Shown: one piece after another, positions 45,446 to 55,240 of the stretch
Layout of the letters: each line of letters opens with the position of its first letter
Numbering within the stretch: the first letter of the stretch is position 1
The notes under the pieces: model-generated
What the model was told of the DNA's origin: nothing
Seen by the model: only the letters and a program-made list of their open reading frames with translations
Database searches by the model: none
Made by a program: the position numbers and the translations under genes
From: an uncultured Bacilli bacterium
GTDB taxonomy: Bacteria > Bacillota_I > Bacilli_A > RF39 > UBA660
Direction of reading: 5' to 3'
Assembly: GCA_944350345.1 (NCBI GenBank)
Contig: CALVOP010000001.1
Location: 1-64,000, forward strand
Length of the DNA: 64,000 nucleotides

Positions 45446-45470
45446 AAAATGTGAATTAATCACATTTTTT
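45444..45470. terminator. Bidirectional terminator between the cortex hydrolase and the LysM amidase
   Basis: AAAAAATGTG-AATTAAT-CACATTTTTT, between two converging genes. Confidence 0.85.
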
Positions 45471-46610
45471 ATTTTGTTGGAATTATTAATTCTTGTCCAA
45501 TAGATAAATTACTACTATTTAAATTGTTTGCTTTCATTATATCATTAACAGTAACACCGTATTTATTGGCAATTTTCCATAAACTATCACCTTTTTGTAC
45601 AGTATAATTAGCATAATCTTTTGTACCAGGAATTACTAAAATTTGCCCAATACTTAGAATATTTGAAGACAAATTGTTTGCTTCTTTTAATTCATCTACT
45701 GTAACGTTATATTTATTTGCTATACTATATAAATTATCTCCTTTAACAACAACATACTTAATCTCATCAATTTCCTCTCCTTGATCAGGCTCAACAGTCG
45801 TTGTTTTAACAGGAATAATAAGTTCTTGATTAATACTTAATAAATCAGATGATAAATTATTTGCTTTTTTTAGTTCATCTACTGTAATACCATAACTATT
45901 GGCAATTTTCCATAAACTATCGCCACTTTTGACCTTATAAATAATTTGACTATCTTCGCCAACATTTATATCTAAATCTTCTTCTTTAGGAATTAATAAT
46001 TGTTGATTTATTTGTAAAGTTGTCCCACTCAAATTATTAAGTTTTTTTATTGTTTCAACCGTCGTATCATATTTATTTGCTATACTCCACAAACTATCCC
46101 CCTTTTGTACCGTATAAATTAAATAATCACTAGGAACAACTTCATCTTCTTTTTGAACTTTTAAAGTTTGACCCACATTTATAATATTACTACTTAAATT
46201 ATTAAGTTTCTTTAACTCATCAACAGTAATACCATATTTATTTGCTATACTCCACAAACTATCTCCTTTTTGTACTGTATAATAACCACTATCTACAGGT
46301 GCTATATAATTCAAATTTTTATAATCCATAACCGCTCTTACAACGGCTTCTGCATAATCTTTATAATTATTTTTTAATTGATTGACATCATCTTTTGAAC
46401 TATCTAAAAAGCCATATTCAACAATTACAGCTTCAGTATTAGGCGTTTCTCTATGAATAAAATAATAATCTTTTGAAGGATTACTTGGCAATCTTTGTTG
46501 ATAATTTTTTCTAATATTTTGGCCTTCTTTTTCTAATTCACTTAAAATTTTAGAAGATAAAGTATTTGTATTTCTAAGTGCGTATATTACTTCAGCACCA
46601 TCGCCACCTC
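45469..46610 (-). pseudogene. C-terminal part of an interrupted N-acetylmuramoyl-L-alanine amidase with five LysM repeats
   Basis: About 380 codons open from the island edge. Begins GGDGAEVIYALRN, the second half of an Amidase_3 domain, and includes FIHRETPNTEAVIVEYGFLD with the catalytic Glu in VEYGF. Five LysM repeats follow (each opening like YTVQKGDSLWSIANKYG), separated by short acidic linkers. The His zinc ligands are missing; they lie in the fragment at 54776-55090. There is no start codon or ribosome site here, and an in-frame stop lies just upstream, within the island. Inactive unless the island is excised. Frames join exactly (470 codons in total). Confidence 0.9.
46605..46610. repeat. 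Island attachment core, left copy (CACCTC / GAGGTG)
   Basis: Six bases shared with 54817-54822. They are the only exact overlap needed to restore the amidase frame. Core-proximal island arm: GTTTAGTTACC at 46615-46625, four bases from the core. Confidence 0.8.
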
Positions 46611-46635
46611 GCGTGTTTAGTTACCGCTAGTAAAA

Positions 46636-46667
46636 TTAATCGATGACTAAATAAAGTCATCGATTAA
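46636..46667 (-). terminator. Terminator at the left end of the island
   Basis: Perfect 13-bp stem TTAATCGATGACT / AGTCATCGATTAA, then TTTTA on the minus strand. It would stop island transcripts before they reach the amidase remnant. Confidence 0.85.
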
Positions 46668-47060
46668 CTATTTTAAACTCAATAATCCCTGATATTCTAA
46701 CTTTATTAATTTGTCATTTATACTTAAAATCATTTTAATCTGGTTATTATCAATATCGCCAAATTCTAAATTGACCACGCTATCAATAAAATCAATAAAA
46801 TCAGTGGTATCAAATATTTCTATCATTGTTATTTTAGAATCTATTTCCGTTGGTAATTCTACATATTTTCTATTTTCTATCTTTTTAAAATCTTTGTCTT
46901 CAAAAAAATCAACATAAAAACTAACATAACCTTTAGCATTATTTAATTCTATATCTAACGATACTAAAATAGAATATCCTTTTCTTGCATTATGAGTGGC
47001 ATTAACATATTTAATTTCTGATGCTAAAACCTTATATTCGCTATTATTTATCTTTAGCAT
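46668..47060 (-). CDS. Hypothetical protein, last gene of the island
   Basis: 130 residues, no family recognised. Predicted mostly beta in the first 75 residues (ARKGYSILVSLDIELNNAKG, YVSFYVDFFED), then helical (DTTDFIDFIDSVVNLEFGD). Acidic. Its start is 1 base from the stop of the CFI-box gene, so the two are co-translated. The size, acidity and position after a multi-domain gene would suit an immunity-like or accessory partner; that is inference only. Confidence 0.6.
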   Translation of the reverse strand: MLKINNSEYKVLASEIKYVNATHNARKGYSILVSLDIELNNAKGYVSFYVDFFEDKDFKKIENRKYVELPTEIDSKITMIEIFDTTDFIDFIDSVVNLEFGDIDNNQIKMILSINDKLIKLEYQGLLSLK

Positions 47061-47061
47061 T

Positions 47062-47634
47062 TTATATACCTAACTTTAAAGACTTAACAAGTCTTTTTTC
47101 TAAAAGTGGTCTTGCAAATTGTTCTTCTAGCGTTAAGACACTGTTTTTATATCTACTATATGCTTTATCATAATGTCCTTGTTCAATTTGTTCAACACAA
47201 TAATCTACAATGTTATCATAAATATAATCATAAATAATACCAGATTGTTCTTCTTTATTAATTGTTTCAACAATTATTGGGGCAACTTCATAATAATGTT
47301 CTTTATCTTCCTTTGACACGAAATTATCCCTAAACCATCTTAATACTGTTAATTCATAACAATTATCATCAAAGTTTTCTTGAAAATATTTCATACAAGC
47401 TGTTGTTAAAAAACAAATAACATCTGTTGATGACTTTTCAGATTTATCAGCATTATGTTGATCAATGCTTCCTTTTCCAGTATTAGTATCATAATTTATT
47501 GTATCTCTAGTATGTCCTCCTTTTTCTCTCTCATTACCCTCATAGATATCAATTCTTACTTTGTCACCACCATTAATTCTAATTAATCCACCATCTTTAG
47601 TTTCATATCCTTTTCTATCACTATTATAAGCCAT
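47062..47634 (-). CDS. CFI-box domain protein
   Basis: 190 residues. The N-terminal 65 residues are Gly/Asp-rich (GGLIRINGGDKVRIDIYEG, YDTNTGKGSIDQHN). Residues about 72-175 resemble the CFI-box-CTERM domain, with CFLTTACMKYFQENFDDNCY (usual form CFITTAxC), then ELTVLRWFRDNFV and YYEVAPIIVETI. The family has many cysteines and no proven function; it is widespread in accessory DNA. Followed at once by the 130-residue gene. Confidence 0.6.
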   Translation of the reverse strand: MAYNSDRKGYETKDGGLIRINGGDKVRIDIYEGNEREKGGHTRDTINYDTNTGKGSIDQHNADKSEKSSTDVICFLTTACMKYFQENFDDNCYELTVLRWFRDNFVSKEDKEHYYEVAPIIVETINKEEQSGIIYDYIYDNIVDYCVEQIEQGHYDKAYSRYKNSVLTLEEQFARPLLEKRLVKSLKLGI

Positions 47635-47699
47635 TTAAATCTTTCCTCTCTTGTCTTTTATTATAGACTTTTTTCAAAATAAATCAATAATTCTAATAA

Positions 47700-49361
47700 T
47701 TAAATTCTATTTTTTCCTCTTTTTCCATAGGGATTTCTTACTAAATTTCTATTTTCATACGTAAAATTAATTTCTTGTATAACATCATATTTAAATATAA
47801 TGGTTATATTCCTATTTTCATCAATTATTATTTTATTTATTAACGAATTAATTAACTCCTTTTTAGTTTTCTTTAAATCTAATAGTTCTTTTATCTTTTT
47901 TGTATAATCTGGCAGTATATTTGCTTTATTCTTTATATTTTGTTTTTTTATTTTTTCTACTTCTATTATATTATTAATCTTTTTTAATTTAGTTTCTGAC
48001 TCTGTAGATAATTCTTTATATAATTCTGCTGAAATAATATTATTACATCTATCACTATATAAAGTGGATAACTTATTCATAATTTGTTCTTTTTCTTTTG
48101 AAAAATCATTTATCTTCTTATCTATATCTTCTGTTTCCTTATGAACGTTTTTTTGTACTTCTTTATTTAATTCTTCTATATCAAGATCTTTTATAAATTT
48201 TGATACTGAATTATTAAATTGTTCTAGTATTTGTTCTTCTAAATAGTCATATGGATAAAAGTGTGAACTACATCTTCCTCTCTTTGGATCTCTAGAATAC
48301 CTATTACAATTAATAGACCAATAATCAAGTTTCTTTCTATAATAAACAGATAGTCTATTACCACACTCTTTACAAAATATTTTTCCTTCTAAAATTCTTT
48401 TTGGTCTTTCTGTTTTTAAACCGTAATTTCTAGTTTTTATTTTTCCTAAAGAATTAACATATTTAAAAGTTTCTTTATCAACTAAAGGTTCATGAGTATC
48501 TTCAACTATTACCCATAAACTTTCATCTAATGTTATCTTCTTCTTTGATTTATAATTTACTTTTGTCTGAGTGTGTTGAACCATATCTCCAGTATAGATT
48601 CTATTACTTAATATTTTCTTTACTGTCGATATATTCCAACTATCTCTATCAATCAATCTAGAGGAATAATTTGTTTTTTTATATCCTGCTGGTGTAGGTA
48701 CATTCATATCATTTAATCTTGTTGCTATTTCGGTTGGCCCTATTCCTTCTGTTCTCCACTTAAATATTTTTTTAACAATTGATGCAGTTTCTAGATTAGG
48801 TATTAAATGTCCTTTATCTAAAGGATCTCTCATATATCCATAACAAGGTTGACTCCCTATAAATTTACCATTTTTTCTTTTATCATTTAATACATTTCTT
48901 ATCTTTATAGAATTTTGTTTACTATAATAATCATTACAAGCAATTATAAATGTTGAAGAATCATTACTAGCTTGATTTTTAAAACTATCATATGATTCAA
49001 GTATAGATATAAATCTTATGTTATTTTCAGGAAAAAATGTTTCAATATAATATCCTGTCATAACATGATCTCTACCAAACCTAGATAAATCTTTAACTAC
49101 TACACAATTTATCTTTTTTTGTTTTATATCCTCTAACATTTTTTGAAATCCCGGTCTATCAAAATTAGTTCCAGAATATCCATCATCTATATATTCTCCA
49201 CATAGATTAAAATTATTATTTTTAACATAACTTCTTAGTAATTCTTTTTGATTAATAACACTTTCACTATCAGATTCATATTTTTTATCTTTATCTTCTT
49301 GAGATAATCTTATATAGATTCCAACGTTGAAATCTATTTCAGTTAAGTAAGTATTATACAT
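47700..49361 (-). CDS. Large serine recombinase (integrase/excisionase of the island)
   Basis: 553 residues. Resolvase domain about 11-160: VGIYIRLSQED with nucleophile Ser20, SVINQKELLRSYV, DDGYSGTNFDRPGFQKML, and Arg residues in KDLSRFGRDH. Recombinase domain about 170-290 (CYGYMRDPLDKGHLIPN, GPTEIATRLNDMNVP). Zinc ribbon about 315-375 (GKIFCKECGNRLSVYY, then Cys residues). Long coiled coil about 395-480, the part that controls synapsis direction. The type fits the short core and the symmetric arms at the ends. GGAGG before the start. Confidence 0.95.
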   Translation of the reverse strand: MYNTYLTEIDFNVGIYIRLSQEDKDKKYESDSESVINQKELLRSYVKNNNFNLCGEYIDDGYSGTNFDRPGFQKMLEDIKQKKINCVVVKDLSRFGRDHVMTGYYIETFFPENNIRFISILESYDSFKNQASNDSSTFIIACNDYYSKQNSIKIRNVLNDKRKNGKFIGSQPCYGYMRDPLDKGHLIPNLETASIVKKIFKWRTEGIGPTEIATRLNDMNVPTPAGYKKTNYSSRLIDRDSWNISTVKKILSNRIYTGDMVQHTQTKVNYKSKKKITLDESLWVIVEDTHEPLVDKETFKYVNSLGKIKTRNYGLKTERPKRILEGKIFCKECGNRLSVYYRKKLDYWSINCNRYSRDPKRGRCSSHFYPYDYLEEQILEQFNNSVSKFIKDLDIEELNKEVQKNVHKETEDIDKKINDFSKEKEQIMNKLSTLYSDRCNNIISAELYKELSTESETKLKKINNIIEVEKIKKQNIKNKANILPDYTKKIKELLDLKKTKKELINSLINKIIIDENRNITIIFKYDVIQEINFTYENRNLVRNPYGKRGKNRI

Positions 49362-49429
49362 TCAATCCTCCAATCTTCTTACTTGACTGAGTATTAAGAC
49401 AATTTAATAATACCGCATTATAAAAAAAA

Positions 49430-49513
49430 TTACAGCGCATTATTTTCTTTTTCTATCTCTTCGATAAGATATTTTAAAATAAGATCTTTAAAAGTTATAT
49501 TATTTTCATTCAT
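49430..49513 (-). CDS. 27-residue ORF before the recombinase
   Basis: MNENNITFKDLILKYLIEEI and then EKENNAL, with AGTAGGTG before the ATG. Its start overlaps the stop of the preceding 21-residue ORF. Amphipathic helix pattern. Too short for family assignment; may be a leader or a tiny directionality factor. Confidence 0.5.
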   Translation of the reverse strand: MNENNITFKDLILKYLIEEIEKENNAL

Positions 49514-49571
49514 AGCAACACCTACTTAAAGTTATGTTGTTTTTATTTGTTTTATTATTATTTAAACTCAT
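49506..49571 (-). CDS. 21-residue ORF before the recombinase
   Basis: MSLNNNKTNKNNITLSRCCY and a final Glu. A strong site (GGGGGT) precedes the ATG. It ends TATGAATGA, overlapping the next start, which indicates coupled translation. Probably a leader peptide. Confidence 0.45.
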   Translation of the reverse strand: MSLNNNKTNKNNITLSRCCYE

Positions 49572-49596
49572 TTTATGTTACCCCCTTTTTATTCAA

Positions 49597-49631
49597 TAAA
49601 AAAATCCCTACATTATTTTGATATAAGGATT
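49597..49631 (-). terminator. Terminator after the RHH gene
   Basis: Minus strand AATCCTTATAT pairs (two G-T) with ATGTAGGGATT (49603-49631), followed by T7. It isolates the RHH gene from the recombinase, or limits recombinase expression to read-through. Confidence 0.75.
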
Positions 49632-49632
49632 A

Positions 49633-49797
49633 TTATTCTTTTATAACTGAATCAATATTTTTTATAATATATTCTATTAATAAAGTTTCCATTATAGATT
49701 GTATTGTAATTTTTTTATTTTCTAGTACTCTTTTAAAAGCCATTTTTGTATGGTCATCAATTCTAAATTTAACTTGATTATTTTTTGGTAAAGCCAT
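49633..49797 (-). CDS. Ribbon-helix-helix DNA-binding protein
   Basis: 54 residues. NQVKFRIDDHTKMAFKRVLE has the RHH beta strand and first helix, then ITIQSIMETLLIEYII, the second helix. Typical of small plasmid and phage repressors and some recombination directionality factors. AGAGGAGAG sits before the ATG. Next to a palindrome-rich intergenic region, its likely target. Confidence 0.8.
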   Translation of the reverse strand: MALPKNNQVKFRIDDHTKMAFKRVLENKKITIQSIMETLLIEYIIKNIDSVIKE

Positions 49798-49904
49798 TTT
49801 TCACTCTCCTCTCTAATAAATTGGTTCCAAAGTATGCACGTTAATTTTTAAACACTATTTTAGGAAAAGGATTTTGATAAAGCAGGATAAACCTGTTTAC
49901 AAAC

Positions 49905-49923
49905 AACTCACCAGTGGTGAGTT
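49905..49923. repeat. Perfect 9-bp palindrome AACTCACCA-G-TGGTGAGTT
   Basis: Perfect inverted repeat with a one-base centre, 108 bases upstream of the RHH start. Either an operator or, on the plus strand where TTTT follows, a short terminator. Confidence 0.6.
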
Positions 49924-49981
49924 TTACCTTATTTTATAAGCATTTATAAAATTAAGTAGCGTTTACACTTTTCATATTTGT

Positions 49982-49995
49982 TATACAATTGTATA
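49982..49995. promoter_or_regulatory. Palindromic site 1 (TATACAATTGTATA)
   Basis: Perfect 14-bp palindrome. Site 2 (50025-50038, TATACAATTGTACA) repeats it 43 bases away, about four helical turns, so a protein could occupy both on one face. A further palindrome, CCTTATA-T-TATAAGG (50005-50019), lies between them. Reads as an operator array. Confidence 0.6.
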
Positions 49996-50024
49996 CTTTT
50001 GATTCCTTATATTATAAGGGGTGT

Positions 50025-50038
50025 TATACAATTGTACA
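50025..50038. promoter_or_regulatory. Palindromic site 2 (TATACAATTGTACA)
   Basis: One-base variant of site 1 with the same flanking GTT at its left. Confidence 0.55.
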
Positions 50039-50064
50039 CAATTTCTAAAATAACTAACTAAGGT

Positions 50065-50111
50065 TTTTGGTACTAAAAATATAAAAACAAAATTAATACT
50101 TAGTACCAAAA
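50065..50111. repeat. 12-bp inverted repeat with a 23-base loop
   Basis: TTTTGGTACTAA (50065-50076) and TTAGTACCAAAA (50100-50111) are exact complements. The loop is nearly all A and T. Could form a hairpin or be two protein sites. Confidence 0.6.
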
Positions 50112-50149
50112 CTTTTTATATTGAATTTAAAGAGGGATTTTTGAATATG

Positions 50150-50220
50150 AAAAAAAGCACTGACCTTTCCCATAAGATCAATGCTATAAATACATCTAAT
50201 TGCATTATTATTTCATATTC
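50150..50220 (-). ncRNA. Candidate small RNA or attenuated leader
   Basis: A strong promoter (50227-50254) and a strong terminator stand about 70 bases apart on the minus strand. The terminator stem is AGCATTGATCTT / AAGGTCAGTGCT (two G-T pairs) with loop ATGGGA and T7. A transcript of about 70 bases would end near 50150. No start codon with a ribosome site lies between. It could be a free regulatory RNA, an antisense to a plus-strand transcript, or the attenuated leader of the RHH/recombinase genes. Confidence 0.5.
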
Positions 50221-50226
50221 TACTAT

Positions 50227-50254
50227 ATTGTATCACATGATTGTCGAAAGTCAA
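50227..50254 (-). promoter_or_regulatory. Island promoter for the small RNA or leader
   Basis: Minus strand: -35 TTGACT (50249-50254), 16-base spacer, -10 TACAAT (50227-50232). Confidence 0.7.
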
Positions 50255-50264
50255 TCAGTAATAA

Positions 50265-50311
50265 ATGTTGTACAAATTTTGATAAAAATGTTGTATAAAA
50301 TCTTGATAAAG
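50265..50311. repeat. Two tandem 23/24-bp repeats upstream of the island promoter
   Basis: ATGTTGTACAAATTTTGATA and ATGTTGTATAAAATCTTGAT open the two units (50265 and 50288). A shorter related stretch (TTTTGATAAAGC) lies near 49871-49883. Iteron-like or activator sites. Confidence 0.55.
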
Positions 50312-50426
50312 CCATATAAATACTGCATTTATGAAAATAGATACTTTAATAGATTATATGTTATTGACAAGCATATGTAATTTTATTTCTTAAATTTTTA
50401 TCAAAATAATGTTGTTATTATAACTA

Positions 50427-50819
50427 TTATTTATAATTCCAAATACCTAATTGTCCTTTAACTTTTATTGGAGTTATTGGTTCTACATCTTCCAAAATCC
50501 ATGCATATCTTCCAACTTCATAATGACCTGCAATAAAATTATTTATATTATTTTCTTTTTCTTTTTTTATAAACTCTTCTGTCATATAAATACAATCAAC
50601 TAAATTGCACTTACATATTATATGTCCATAATTAAGTTCATCTTCATTATATAGTTCAGATAATCCTTTTCTTTCTTTTACTTCTTTTCTTATTTTTGCA
50701 ACTCCAGCTTGTATGTATAATTCTCCGCGATAATTTGTTTTCCAACTTCTTGTTTCAATATATTTAACTTTATTTTTTATCAATGTAGCAAAGGGTTCTT
50801 TAATTGTTAATACTTTCAT
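50427..50819 (-). CDS. ASCH domain protein
   Basis: 130 residues. Starts MKVLTIKEPFATLIKNKVKYIETRSWKT-like with the ASCH core (conserved KTIETRSWxTxYRG), then LYIQAGVAK, FIAGHYEVGRYAWILEDVEPI and KGQLGIWNY. ASCH proteins share the PUA-like fold; some are nucleotide-modifying (N4-acetylcytidine amidohydrolase) or RNA-binding. Encoded just after a methyltransferase and probable nuclease, so it may belong to that defence unit. Role in it unknown. Confidence 0.8.
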   Translation of the reverse strand: MKVLTIKEPFATLIKNKVKYIETRSWKTNYRGELYIQAGVAKIRKEVKERKGLSELYNEDELNYGHIICKCNLVDCIYMTEEFIKKEKENNINNFIAGHYEVGRYAWILEDVEPITPIKVKGQLGIWNYK

Positions 50820-50836
50820 AAACTCTAACTCTCTTT

Positions 50837-51961
50837 TTAATCTAAAACTGCTTGTTTTAAATCTGAAGCTAATTTATTCATAGAGTCATTTAATTTATCA
50901 ATATCATGCTTTGACATAAAATATTCTTCACCATCATTACTACTTCTATCTAAAATATCAAATGTAATTCTATAAACATGATCTTTTATTAAATTATTGT
51001 TTTGCCACATACAATCTTTTTTAGCTTTAATATAAAAATTATTTTTATTAATCTTTAATATATCAATATCTTCTGGTGATGAAACATAAAAACCTGTTGT
51101 CCTAACTTTTTTACCATTTTTATATGTAATACCCTCTTCATCTACACTTTCATACCAATTAGAATTAAAATAATATAGTCCATTTACATTTGCATTACAA
51201 TAATCCAACAAATTACCACGATATGCATCTTTTAATTTATTAGCCGGACATTCTTCACAAGCCTTTATATACTCAATGCTAACACGAGATTCACATTTGA
51301 CAGCCTTTTTCATAAAATCTTCTGCTGTCGTAACCACTAATAATTTTACAGAACCTAAAGTTTTATCTGATAATTCAACTTTATGAGGTTGCGCTATATT
51401 ACCTTCATCATTTGAAATTATAAATATTTTATCGTCCATATGCAAATCCAAGAAAATTTGTTTTGAAAATAATGCTTTATTTAATAGTGGTATTAAGTAA
51501 TCTACTCTAAAATTTGCTTCAGCCATCACTAAATATTTTTGATCATAACCTTGATTTCTTAATGAAATCATATATTGATTTTTCTTAAATGTCTTAACTT
51601 CTATTTGTGGTCTTTTTTCTATAGGAAACCAGTGATTATCAAACTTTACAAATGGAATAGCTTTCTTTTTATATTTTATTCCGATAACATCAGGAGCAAT
51701 CCCAGCAGTTTTAGGATTATAATCATAATAATCAGTAATAACTTCAACTTTTTCACCTTTAAAAACTTGAGGTAAAATAATTTTATTAAATAAAACACTT
51801 TCTGTAATTATATTTATCCATCTATCAAAAATTCCACCCATATAATCTGCTTTAGATGTTAAAGCACCTTGCATCGGTCTATCCCCTTGCATTTGTGTTA
51901 AATTAGCAATAAAATATACTGCCTTTTTAGCATCATTAATACTTATTTTTACTTCATTCAT
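50837..51961 (-). CDS. Probable type II restriction endonuclease
   Basis: 374 residues from ATG after GGAGG. No family recognised with certainty, but a PD-(D/E)xK pattern is visible: GIAPDVIGIKY (about 90-100) and then PQIEVKTFKKNQ (about 121-132), that is PD...ExK at normal spacing. A CxxC pair (ACEECPANK) lies near residue 239. It follows the cytosine-5 methyltransferase by 14 bases on the same strand, the classic R-M arrangement. Recognition site unknown. Confidence 0.7.
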   Translation of the reverse strand: MNEVKISINDAKKAVYFIANLTQMQGDRPMQGALTSKADYMGGIFDRWINIITESVLFNKIILPQVFKGEKVEVITDYYDYNPKTAGIAPDVIGIKYKKKAIPFVKFDNHWFPIEKRPQIEVKTFKKNQYMISLRNQGYDQKYLVMAEANFRVDYLIPLLNKALFSKQIFLDLHMDDKIFIISNDEGNIAQPHKVELSDKTLGSVKLLVVTTAEDFMKKAVKCESRVSIEYIKACEECPANKLKDAYRGNLLDYCNANVNGLYYFNSNWYESVDEEGITYKNGKKVRTTGFYVSSPEDIDILKINKNNFYIKAKKDCMWQNNNLIKDHVYRITFDILDRSSNDGEEYFMSKHDIDKLNDSMNKLASDLKQAVLD

Positions 51962-51975
51962 ACTAACCTCCAAAA

Positions 51976-53136
51976 TTATTCAGACATATCTGATTTTTCT
52001 AATAGTTCTAACAAGTCAGTAGCAAGCATCTGTATTACTGGAACCGAAACTGCATTTCCTGCTTGTTTATACAATTGAGAATCAGGATATACTCTGCCTT
52101 TTATAACCGTAGGTAATTTGTATCCATTATCAACGGGAAAACCTTGTAATTTAAATGTTTCTTTTGGTGTTAATTTTCTGATACCATCATTTACTTTTAT
52201 TAAAGGGACATTATGACCACCAGTTCCCATATTTGCTGTAAGTGTAGGACAAACACCACTTTGATTTTTTCTTATATACATTCCTCTTCTACATTGATAA
52301 AACTCGTACATTTCATCAATTTGTGTATTTAAATTTATTTTTTCTTTTTTATTAGATTTTTCAAATTCTTCATCTGACATAAAATAGTTTGGATATTTTT
52401 CTTTTGTATAATAATACTTAGTTGCATTTTCTTTTGTCAAATTATAATCAATAACCTTTTTAATATCTTTAATTCTTGATGCTTTATCTTTATTCTTTAT
52501 CCTATTTTCAATATCCTTAAATATTTCAAAATTTTTTATATCATTTTCATTTAATAAACCTATAATATATATTCTTTCTCTGTTTTGTGGTACATCAGTA
52601 TAATCCATGGTATTTAATACTTTTTCATAAACTTTATATCCACAATTCTCAAGTTTTTGTTTAATATGCGTATAAGTTTTTTTGTCATCGTGTGCTTGAA
52701 GATTTTTTACATTTTCAAGAAATAATATACGTGGCTTATGAAATTTTTCACCCAATTGTTCAATTAAATCTATAATGTTTAAAAATAAGTTTCCTCTATC
52801 ATCTTCAAATCCTTTACGTTCTCCAGCAATACTGAATGCTTGACAAGGAAAACCACCGTTCAAAATATCTATCGGTTCACTTAATATTTTATCATGTAAT
52901 TTTTGATAATATTTTTGTTCTGTTTTCTCTGTCGCTTGTTCTGGATGAAGTACTAATTTTATATCACCTTCTAGTAATTGATGTGAAAAATTAGTTCTAT
53001 ATGTTTCACATGCATATTCATCTATTTCATTTGCCCAAAGCAATTTATATCTAGAATTCTTTGTCTTTGCATTTTTAAAACCTAAGCATATTCCACCAAC
53101 ACCAGCAAATAAACTTCCAACCTTATATTCAACCAT
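51976..53136 (-). CDS. DNA (cytosine-5) methyltransferase
   Basis: 386 residues. Motifs in order: I VGSLFAGVGGICLGF (SAM), IV GGFPCQAFSIAGERKGF with catalytic Cys, VI FLENVKNL, VIII QNRERIYIIG, the target-recognition region (about 235-310), IX RKLTPKETFKLQGFP, and X YKQAGNAVSVPVI. Complete, so likely active. Starts at the ATG with AAAGGA nine bases upstream. First gene of the R-M-ASCH unit. Recognition sequence cannot be read from this. Confidence 0.95.
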   Translation of the reverse strand: MVEYKVGSLFAGVGGICLGFKNAKTKNSRYKLLWANEIDEYACETYRTNFSHQLLEGDIKLVLHPEQATEKTEQKYYQKLHDKILSEPIDILNGGFPCQAFSIAGERKGFEDDRGNLFLNIIDLIEQLGEKFHKPRILFLENVKNLQAHDDKKTYTHIKQKLENCGYKVYEKVLNTMDYTDVPQNRERIYIIGLLNENDIKNFEIFKDIENRIKNKDKASRIKDIKKVIDYNLTKENATKYYYTKEKYPNYFMSDEEFEKSNKKEKINLNTQIDEMYEFYQCRRGMYIRKNQSGVCPTLTANMGTGGHNVPLIKVNDGIRKLTPKETFKLQGFPVDNGYKLPTVIKGRVYPDSQLYKQAGNAVSVPVIQMLATDLLELLEKSDMSE

Positions 53137-53281
53137 ATGTACCATCCTTTCTAGTTTTTATATGCTAATACAATTATAACATAAAAACTATCTATTTTTT
53201 CTCTAATATGATTTATATATTCAAAAATCATATAAAAAAAGAAAGAAATCAATCTTCCCATTTTTATAGAATACTTATAAT

Positions 53282-54046
53282 TTAAAATATAGTATTGCAT
53301 TTTAAAATAATTTCTTCAGATTTTAACATCCCTTTGGGCGAAATTGTACATTTCTCATTATCATATTCTATATATTTTTCATTATGCATTTGTTTTAATA
53401 ACTTCTTAAATGTCGCTTTATTAGAATATTCTACATTTTTTATAAGTTCATCAACTCCCATAGTATCATTAATATAAAGAATAATAAGAATTTTATCACA
53501 ACATTTCATATTATTATCTAATATCCTAAATTTATCTTCAACACGCCAAAGCAAATCAATCTCTTTATTAATTATCGAATCTATATTTTTTTGACATTTA
53601 GTCATATCTTCTTTTGAGAAAACTCTATATAATTCTGCCAAAATCCATTTTGCATTTGATAATAATAAATTGGCATCCATTTTATTAGGAATAATATCGT
53701 TTTTGTGAATCGCTCCTCTTTTATTTCTAATACAATACATAGCATATAATACCCTAGGAATTATTACTCTAATATTTTCTTCTACATTTTGAACATTTTC
53801 CCATTTAATTAAAATTGTTTCGTTAAAATTATTTAATTTATTTTTTAACGGTGTATAACTACCCGTTAGCATATATTCAATAATTCTGTATACAGTTTCA
53901 TTAAATTGTCCCATTTCATTAATAAAATACTGCCAATTTCCTTTAGAATATTCCTTTAAACCTTTACAATAAGAATCAAATAATCCATTTGATAAATCAA
54001 GTGGAATTTCATTATCAAAAGTGTTCTTTATATTGGATACATTCAT
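53282..54046 (-). CDS. HEPN-like and winged-helix protein of a putative two-gene defence unit
   Basis: 254 residues. The helical middle has YAMYCIRNKRGAIHKNDII, where Arg-x6-His matches the loose HEPN RNase signature (Rx4-6H), followed by DANLLLSNAKWILAELYRVF. The last 70 residues (GVDELIKNVEYSNKATFKKL, MHNEKYIEYDNEKCTISPKG) look like a winged helix. I do not know the family. It is co-translated with the upstream 189-residue gene (1-base gap). Abortive-infection or RNA-targeting roles are inference. Confidence 0.6.
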   Translation of the reverse strand: MNVSNIKNTFDNEIPLDLSNGLFDSYCKGLKEYSKGNWQYFINEMGQFNETVYRIIEYMLTGSYTPLKNKLNNFNETILIKWENVQNVEENIRVIIPRVLYAMYCIRNKRGAIHKNDIIPNKMDANLLLSNAKWILAELYRVFSKEDMTKCQKNIDSIINKEIDLLWRVEDKFRILDNNMKCCDKILIILYINDTMGVDELIKNVEYSNKATFKKLLKQMHNEKYIEYDNEKCTISPKGMLKSEEIILKCNTIF

Positions 54047-54047
54047 A

Positions 54048-54617
54048 TTAAACAGATTTGCAATATTCTATAAGCATATTTTGAGCTAAAGAAAATTTAG
54101 AAGCCATTAAAATGATTTTGTTACTTTCATATTTTAACCACTCGCAATTTTTATAAGATCTTGCGGCATTATTTGAAGAAATATTTAATTGTTTTAATAC
54201 AGTAATGACATCTTTTTGCATTACATCTCCTAAATTGGCACTTTTTTTCCATAAAGCTAAAATTGTCCCTACTATTACAACATCAGGCAGTGCTCTTTTA
54301 TTTGCAAACTGTTTTTTATAATTCTCCCAAGTTTTCATATCTAAGTGAATAAATGGTGTTTCCATAGTCGGATTAAGAGCATCTTTAATTAAATCCACTT
54401 CTATATCAATTTCTTTCGCAAATTTTTCAATCGGAGATAAAATAGTCTTGCTCTCATTATCTTTATTTTCGCTTTTATTTATAGCATTTAAAGGTTGAGA
54501 GTCATTGCATTTAATACTACTTAATACACTTTGCCATAATGTTAAACTATTACTAGTTGCCACAACCTTATCATCTACATATAAAACCGTTTTAAAAACA
54601 GGTTCGTTTTCGTTCAT
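54048..54617 (-). CDS. Hypothetical protein, first gene of the putative defence unit
   Basis: 189 residues from ATG after GGGAGGTG. First 45 residues beta-like (FKTVLYVDDKVVATSNSLTL), a Ser/Asn/Lys-rich linker (45-65), then a helical domain with APFIHLD-like TPFIHLDMKTWENYKKQF and a C-terminal helix-turn region (LGDVMQKDVITVLKQLNISS, NCEWLKYESNKIILMASKFS). No family recognised. Has its own strong promoter at the right end of the island. Confidence 0.6.
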   Translation of the reverse strand: MNENEPVFKTVLYVDDKVVATSNSLTLWQSVLSSIKCNDSQPLNAINKSENKDNESKTILSPIEKFAKEIDIEVDLIKDALNPTMETPFIHLDMKTWENYKKQFANKRALPDVVIVGTILALWKKSANLGDVMQKDVITVLKQLNISSNNAARSYKNCEWLKYESNKIILMASKFSLAQNMLIEYCKSV

Positions 54618-54663
54618 TTTTATACACCTCCCTAACATTTTCAAATAAACGATTACAACTATA

Positions 54664-54692
54664 TTATTACATAATCAAGGCTTTTTTGTCAA
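54664..54692 (-). promoter_or_regulatory. Promoter of the two-gene unit, with upstream inverted repeat
   Basis: Minus strand: -35 TTGACA (54687-54692), 17-base spacer, -10 TAATAA (54664-54669). Just upstream GGTTA-N6-TAACC (54700-54715) is a possible operator. Confidence 0.8.
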
Positions 54693-54775
54693 CCCTAGCG
54701 GTTATTTTTGTAACCTTTTTTGTTTATTTTTTTAAACGTTAGTGATGATTTTCGTGTTTTTTAAATTTTATTGCC

Positions 54776-55090
54776 TTAATACTCAATCATTTCTTTGTAG
54801 TGGCAACTGAACTCTGCACCTCCGGCGTTTATGTGATTAGAAATAACTATAACATCTTTCCCATTCCCATAAGCGTCAAGAATTCTATCCACCCTTTCAG
54901 ATGAATCTAAAGTTTCATCCGTAGTTCTAGTCATTTTAACTGGCACACCTAATTCTCTAAATCGATCATACATATAAGTACTTATTAACAAATTTAAATC
55001 TTTTTCAACTATACCATTTCCTGAAGCTCCGCCATCTACTCCGCCATGACCAGCATCTATTACAATTCCAGTTAACACCCTATCATTCAT
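54776..55090 (-). pseudogene. N-terminal part of the interrupted amidase
   Basis: Starts at ATG 55090 with AGAGGTG before it: MNDRVLTGIVIDAGHGG. It carries the Amidase_3 zinc ligands: His in DAGHGG, Glu in VEKDLN and His in ISNHINAGG (about residue 85). After the core at 54817-54822 the frame runs into island DNA for about 14 codons (AEFSCHYKEM) and stops at 54776. So the zinc ligands are here and the catalytic Glu is 8.2 kb away. Amidase_3 cuts the bond between MurNAc and the stem peptide. No signal peptide is seen at the native start. Confidence 0.9.
54817..54822. repeat. Island attachment core, right copy (CACCTC / GAGGTG)
   Basis: Exact copy of 46605-46610. Island arm GGCAACTGAAC (54802-54812), four bases from the core, mirrors the left arm with two transitions. 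The reconstructed empty site has the dyad CGCC-GGAGGT-GGCG. Confidence 0.8.
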
Positions 55091-55240
55091 GCATTTCACC
55101 TCTATAATAATGTATGAAAAATAAATAAATGTGATATTTATAACCACTATAATTAGTAAAAAAATGTAAACAAACAAAGTAAAAATAAATAAAAATACTT
55201 ATAAATGCTATAATAAAAATATAAGAAAGGAAGGTATAAA

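Follow-up and report, generated by a model that had tools for sequence, protein, structure and literature searches.

What kind of system is encoded by two adjacent genes beside an R-M system in the genome of an uncultured Bacilli bacterium, and could it be one of defense? The window analyzed here is a stretch of 64,000 nucleotides (contig CALVOP010000001.1, positions 1 to 64,000), in which the two genes, here called A and B, form an operon near the edge of an integrated element. The explanation that best accommodates the findings, and to which about even chances are given, is that A-B is a mobile, defense-like module: a HEPN-type RNase, B, under the control of A-type proteins. Other readings of the pair are weighed below where the evidence bears on them.

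Operon structure

The sequence-only reading of this locus had described two genes one base apart, preceded by a consensus promoter. Both ORFs, their spacing and a strong promoter-like site were verified, on the minus strand:

53282-54046, minus strand: gene B, 254 aa, ATG start
53705-53728, minus strand: codons for RNKRGAIH (B residues 107-114), R-x6-H with Asn after Arg
54048-54617, minus strand: gene A, 189 aa, ATG behind a ribosome-binding-like site, GGGAGGTG
54692-54663, minus strand: promoter-like site TTGACA-18-AATAAT, with TG before the second hexamer, matching at 11/12 positions

If the first start (TTG) of A is used, the gene extends over 54048-54644 on the same strand. The A stop and the B ATG are separated by one base, and the promoter-like site is the best of 22 sites in 1.8 kb (shuffles gave 14.3 +/- 3.9 sites of at least 9/12). 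The inverted repeat that had been placed beside this promoter is weak and unconvincing: a search of the region returned only two imperfect arm pairs, of 9 and 17 nt, with arms 39-47 nt apart, and a further 8-nt pair with arms 71 nt apart.

The same layout is found in other genomes. An ORF of at least 80 aa ends at the B start in 74 of 79 relatives of B. L013 and L015 were set aside as spurious A calls; in the other 72 loci, the distance from the A end to the B start ranges from -26 to +43 nt and is within 20 nt in 67. Because the pair is conserved across unrelated genomes, it is more than a chance juxtaposition.

The host element and its insertion site

A-B is the outermost cargo of an 8.2-kb element that splits an amidase-LysM gene. 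The pair had been placed at an island edge, in a cargo slot beside an R-M system, and both descriptions agree with the features of this region:

45469-46604, minus strand: split amidase, C-terminal part, with LysM-like repeats (by eye)
46605-46610 and 54817-54822: six-base core GAGGTG
46611-54822: integrated element, 8.2 kb, splitting the amidase-LysM gene, with shared core GAGGTG
47700-49361, minus strand: large serine recombinase, likely the integrase (Resolvase, Recombinase, Zn_ribbon_recom)
50427-50819, minus strand: ASCH-domain protein, cargo (family match)
50837-51973, minus strand: 378-aa protein, probable restriction endonuclease (from its position and an APDVIG...IEVKT pattern seen by eye)
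51976-53145, minus strand: C5-cytosine DNA methyltransferase, cargo (family matches)
54823-55177, minus strand: split amidase, N-terminal part; the ORF, 54776-55177, extends slightly into the element

The content of the element comprises the serine recombinase, two small ORFs, the ASCH protein, the probable restriction enzyme, the C5 methyltransferase, B and A. When its flanks are joined at GAGGTG, they give a single 499-residue amidase-LysM frame, and matches of congeners to the window stop at 54817-54819 on one side and at 46608-46609 on the other. The 378-aa protein encoded between the C5 methyltransferase and ASCH genes matches no family in Pfam, NCBIfam, PADLOC or PHROGs, and is probably an undescribed restriction endonuclease.

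At the same site, the congener G017 carries another insertion of about 9.1 kb (G017:C2 8855-17976, L129), which has a similar recombinase and, by eye, a cargo of a C5 methyltransferase, a second DNA methyltransferase, an HNH-like protein and a regulator. The amidase-LysM gene is a repeated target of serine-recombinase elements, and their R-M-type cargo differs between congeners. Since R-M-type genes occur at this site in both the window and G017, the slot that A-B occupies is one of exchangeable cargo. Within the G017 element (L129 412-4823) there are also a 576-aa protein, which by eye we take to resemble the DUF6119 kind, and an HTH protein, along with two DNA methyltransferases adjoining the HNH-like protein.

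Distribution of B homologues

Automatically patterned scans with the window's protein or a two-row alignment (A2) as queries found no relatives of B. A hand-made DNA pattern for PR-x5-Y-x-[IV]-R-N-x-R-x3-H was run on genome_contigs and matched 92 stretches, from which 80 loci were taken; 79 of these encode B relatives, and the remaining one, L016, was rejected as a chance match of the DNA pattern. Most of the 79 relatives carry the signature IPR-x5-ALYEIRNNRGVGHVGGDVDPNHMDA...W..AEL. They belong to at least 21 phyla, archaea included, and B is a wide family, not an oddity.

Its spread is sporadic. With genomes serving as centres left out, profile A3 found full-length B in 1/196, 1/184, 0/156 and 0/148 genomes of four classes, and an extra match in G1055 covers the wHTH only. 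Used singly as a query, the window's protein had one partial match among 287 other genomes of its order and one among 394 of its class, and profile A2 gave none in 391 other genomes of its phylum. B is single-copy in seven of the eight genomes checked. Two different B genes are carried by the genome of Puia dinghuensis (G768; L099 and L107).

A tree of 77 rows, with 21 named phyla, was built with the window added and without L016 and the open or cut loci L026, L042 and L045. In it, the window's B groups with those of an Oscillospiraceae bacterium (47% identity) and a methanogenic archaeon, with support of 100. Phylum labels change 37 times on this tree, which was made by a quick method and in which long branches meet; the minimum possible is 20, and shuffles give 46. 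The module has spread horizontally.

Protein B and its possible relation to HEPN domains

No family had been recognized for B from its sequence, and the library searches bear this out. The window's B matches nothing above curated cut-offs in Pfam or NCBIfam, and its matches in PADLOC 2.0.0 and PHROGs are weak, partial and mostly in the wHTH region, with no whole-protein model. When 32 relatives were compared with Pfam, NCBIfam and PADLOC, any one family matched five of them at most, and never convincingly; the B alignment, searched as a profile against the PDB, found no relative. A single-sequence structure model of B consists of helices at low confidence (mean pLDDT 46), and a Foldseek search with this model returned poor matches, mostly winged-helix regulators, with HEPN not among them. 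CARF and WH_III-A CRISPR proteins in PADLOC weakly match B (E 6e-4 and 9e-3), the match being confined to its wHTH. Apart from these and a rejected partial Cas6 match of A, no CRISPR-associated matches were found in PADLOC for the scanned proteins of the element; A-B as part of a CRISPR system was rejected, since such models match B's wHTH alone.

The N-terminal part of B, at approximately residues 18-145, is a helical, HEPN-like domain that contains R107-N108-x5-H114 and an invariant E50, and profile matches place a C-terminal winged helix at approximately residues 184-247. The Rx6H site that had been noticed in a helical domain (RNKRGAIH, residues 107-114) lies in a domain with profile similarity to Abi_C, and the winged helix said to follow it is present. 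In all 77 aligned rows, G46, E50, P97, R98, Y104, R107, N108, R110, H114, D124, W134 and G239 are invariant. The search pattern itself fixed P97, R98, Y104, R107, N108, R110 and H114, and the pattern-independent invariants are therefore G46, E50, D124, W134 and G239 alone. The relatives P0001, L107, L108 and L109 were reached by other means than the pattern, and all four keep R-N-x-R-x3-H, although three of them were retrieved by a profile that already contains it.

In the excerpted text of the survey of the HEPN superfamily by Anantharaman et al. (2013; PMC3710099), a likely RNase site has Rx4-6H, a polar residue after the R and an upstream conserved acid, and HEPN families are described in R-M operons. 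In B, RNKRGAIH provides R-x4-6-H with one of N, D or H after the Arg, and the upstream acid, typically Ex3[KR], is found as E50 in 77/77 rows, with a basic residue at +4 (R54, giving Ex3R in the window's B) in just 10/77. The HEPN RNases in those excerpts are like B in Rx6H, the polar residue after R, the upstream invariant acid, a predominantly helical structure (predicted for B) and an R-M neighborhood, the last of these seen for B in the window. None of the families in the excerpts (PMC3710099), however, combines a single C-terminal wHTH with a small, separately encoded wHTH partner, the arrangement proposed for A-B. The EC042_2821-type HEPN-wHTH-REase proteins described there (PMC3710099) share with B the combination of HEPN and wHTH and an occurrence in R-M operons, but are larger fusions with REase and zinc-ribbon domains, and are set apart from B on the basis of that description. 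HEPN-MNT toxin-antitoxin systems are likewise two-gene operons with a HEPN-type protein, putatively so for B; in contrast to these, B bears a wHTH, A-type genes are modular and A has no nucleotidyltransferase match at E up to 1 in Pfam, NCBIfam, PADLOC or PHROGs, and hence not the partner that defines HEPN-MNT pairs.

The N-terminal domain of B also resembles the abortive-infection domain Abi_C (PF14355). In a profile-profile alignment (hhalign) with six Abi_C proteins, the N-terminal domain of B scores 29.1 (P 1.7e-5) with R, N and H in register, as against at most 11.05 in 60 column shuffles and 2.5 for the reversed control. This alignment supports a HEPN-like RNase for B. With the R, N and H columns masked, the score falls to 11.2, hardly above the shuffle maximum of 10.0, and the link between B and Abi_C therefore rests mainly on the motif. 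PF14355 itself does not match the window's B at the Pfam gathering cut-off, and it matches one of the 32 relatives (E 0.046). The R-N-x2-[GS]-x2-H of B recurs at the same spacing in four of the six Abi_C members, followed by a helix of small and hydrophobic residues; unlike in B, the Abi_C domain is C-terminal or nearly so in most members compared, and is without the IPR, GGD and W..AEL signatures. From its motif, Abi_C may itself be read as a HEPN domain. It is not named as one in the excerpts of PMC3710099, and an Abi_C protein searched against the PDB found no relative.

The modular partner A

The window's A has a predicted N-terminal beta hairpin and a C-terminal winged-helix-like region, both from a low-confidence single-sequence model (pLDDT 34). 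It matches no family above the curated cut-offs of Pfam and NCBIfam, and at best weak partial models in PADLOC and PHROGs. Matches to Cas6b_C (Pfam, E 0.033), partial and below cut-off, and to Cas6 (PADLOC, E 0.0024), also partial, were rejected. The protein is labelled A by its position, size and predicted wHTH, and its likeness to other A's is weak: it matches neither of two A profiles in HMM comparisons (E 13 and 99), and by hhalign it gives P 0.008 and 0.018, in register over the C-terminal region only.

Seven module profiles, two N-terminal and five C-terminal, between them match 68 of the 74 A-type ORFs of the relatives at E up to 0.01; this count is partly circular, as the profiles were built from members. 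A helical N-module combines with five C-terminal families, and in L037 it is joined to the C-terminal family of that locus's own B clade. In 12/79 loci, an additional A-like gene is present beside a single B; the one in L037 lies on the opposite strand. Of 2211 pairs from 67 loci (L013, L015, L024, L033, L054, L075 and loci lacking a usable A or B left out), 2185 show lower conservation in A than in B. A-type genes evolve much faster than B and recombine their N- and C-terminal modules. A further small wHTH-like family is encoded upstream of A in three unrelated B loci (L031 1864-2274, L054 3725-4156 and L064 3984-4661).

Mobility and the toxin-antitoxin model

It may be asked whether A-B is a type II toxin-antitoxin system, with B an RNase toxin and A an antitoxin and autorepressor, the pair stabilizing its element with no role in sensing. 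Such a model would account for a small first gene directly before a larger one, as in the 67 closely spaced relatives, for a faster-evolving partner with a DNA-binding-like wHTH and for carriage by an integrative element. Most toxin-antitoxin genes and many abortive-infection genes occur on plasmids or phages, and addiction modules usually abound there. B, however, was found on 1 of 72,556 plasmids, two B queries reaching the same Natronomonas record and a third reaching none, and the three queries found it on 0 of 50,697 phages. This near-absence speaks against a toxin-antitoxin module of the ordinary sort. The plasmid relative (Natronomonas pharaonis PL131) is distant, with 27% identity over half of the query. 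Two A-type proteins used as queries gave no plasmid match, and no B was confirmed in IMG/VR viral contigs, including with a slightly stricter DNA pattern. B also has a wHTH of its own, and two or more different A-like genes for a single B would be odd for an antitoxin. The toxin-antitoxin model is, on balance, rather unlikely.

Gene neighborhoods and the regulator model

The relatives of B have 610 neighboring ORFs in total, of which 146 were scanned. The sequence-only reading was to fall if homologues lay mostly in housekeeping rather than defense contexts, and it stands in part: R-M, AbiE or DarT genes are located near B in about 10 of 79 loci (L008, L029, L033, L034, L049, L059, L063, L064, L070 and L079, judged from sequences and family tables combined), a raw count for which no enrichment is claimed, and most neighbors with a family are housekeeping genes. 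Integrases occur near B in L048 and L074, a resolvase occurs in L029, and a Massilia genome has an Abi_C gene 5.6 kb from B. In a Pacebacteria bin with a B homologue (L063 4383-6499), a nearby C5 methyltransferase is 44% identical to that of the window, and another nearby protein was taken for a NotI-type enzyme match.

Housekeeping neighbors in most relatives, the prevailing single copy and the wHTH (by profile matches in B, probable in A) would suit a complex in which two winged-helix proteins regulate neighboring genes and the HEPN-like domain is a dimerization or RNA-binding module rather than an RNase. This is unlikely. Apart from A-type genes, no neighbor family recurs in more than five B loci, the presence of B is sporadic, and the conserved Rx6H, Asn after Arg and upstream Glu are predicted catalytic residues of HEPN RNases in the excerpts of PMC3710099. 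It is still more improbable that the B domain has some other helical fold, in which R-N-x-R-x3-H serves another purpose, for instance to bind a nucleotide or phosphate: R98 and R110 (both pattern-fixed) and the invariant Trp are unmentioned for HEPN in those excerpts (PMC3710099), Foldseek with the low-confidence model gave no HEPN match and the Abi_C similarity is marginal once the motif is masked, but that similarity includes the same motif spacing and the helix that follows.

A possible mode of action

The preferred reading, a mobile and defense-like module, draws on the conserved pair, on R-N-x5-H and the upstream Glu, on the similarity to Abi_C, on the rapid, modular evolution of A-type genes, on horizontal spread and, in the window, on the R-M-linked cargo position in a serine-recombinase element. 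B would be a probable metal-independent endoribonuclease with a HEPN-type fold, in which R107 and H114 form the catalytic pair and N108 and E50 assist, and its C-terminal winged helix may dock on nucleic acid or on A. A, a small winged-helix protein of modular build, would be translated from the shared message immediately ahead of B. It could restrain B, and release or direct it on sensing an invader or the damage that an invader causes; released B would then cut cell RNA, leading to growth arrest or abortive infection, and phage defense is the presumed outcome. Counting against this reading are the poor B model, the dependence of the Abi_C link on the motif, the housekeeping neighbors, the near-absence from plasmids and phages and the weak match of the window's A to other A's.

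A wider version is more tentative. A-B may represent a kind of immunity that has yet to be described, infrequent but spread over at least 21 phyla and archaea. A single conserved RNase of HEPN type would in this case be coupled to between one and three small winged-helix sensors that can be exchanged. Their N-modules would be swapped and their C-terminal wHTH would track the RNase, so that a fixed killer is re-aimed at new invader signals.

No paper on the A-B pair was recognized in searches of an open-access library. A mostly single-copy family whose putative catalytic motif is strongly conserved, found in at least 21 phyla and in none of the searched copies of Pfam, NCBIfam, PADLOC and PHROGs, is a real annotation gap, and the reading of A-B given here offers many hypothetical proteins a testable annotation. 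Should B prove to be an RNase restrained by exchangeable partners, the module would provide a compact case for studying how evolution replaces the sensors that govern a toxic effector. The site in the amidase gene, as a cargo slot, can be compared among congeners and may reveal further R-M or defense genes; G033 and G161 likewise break at the amidase-LysM insertion site.
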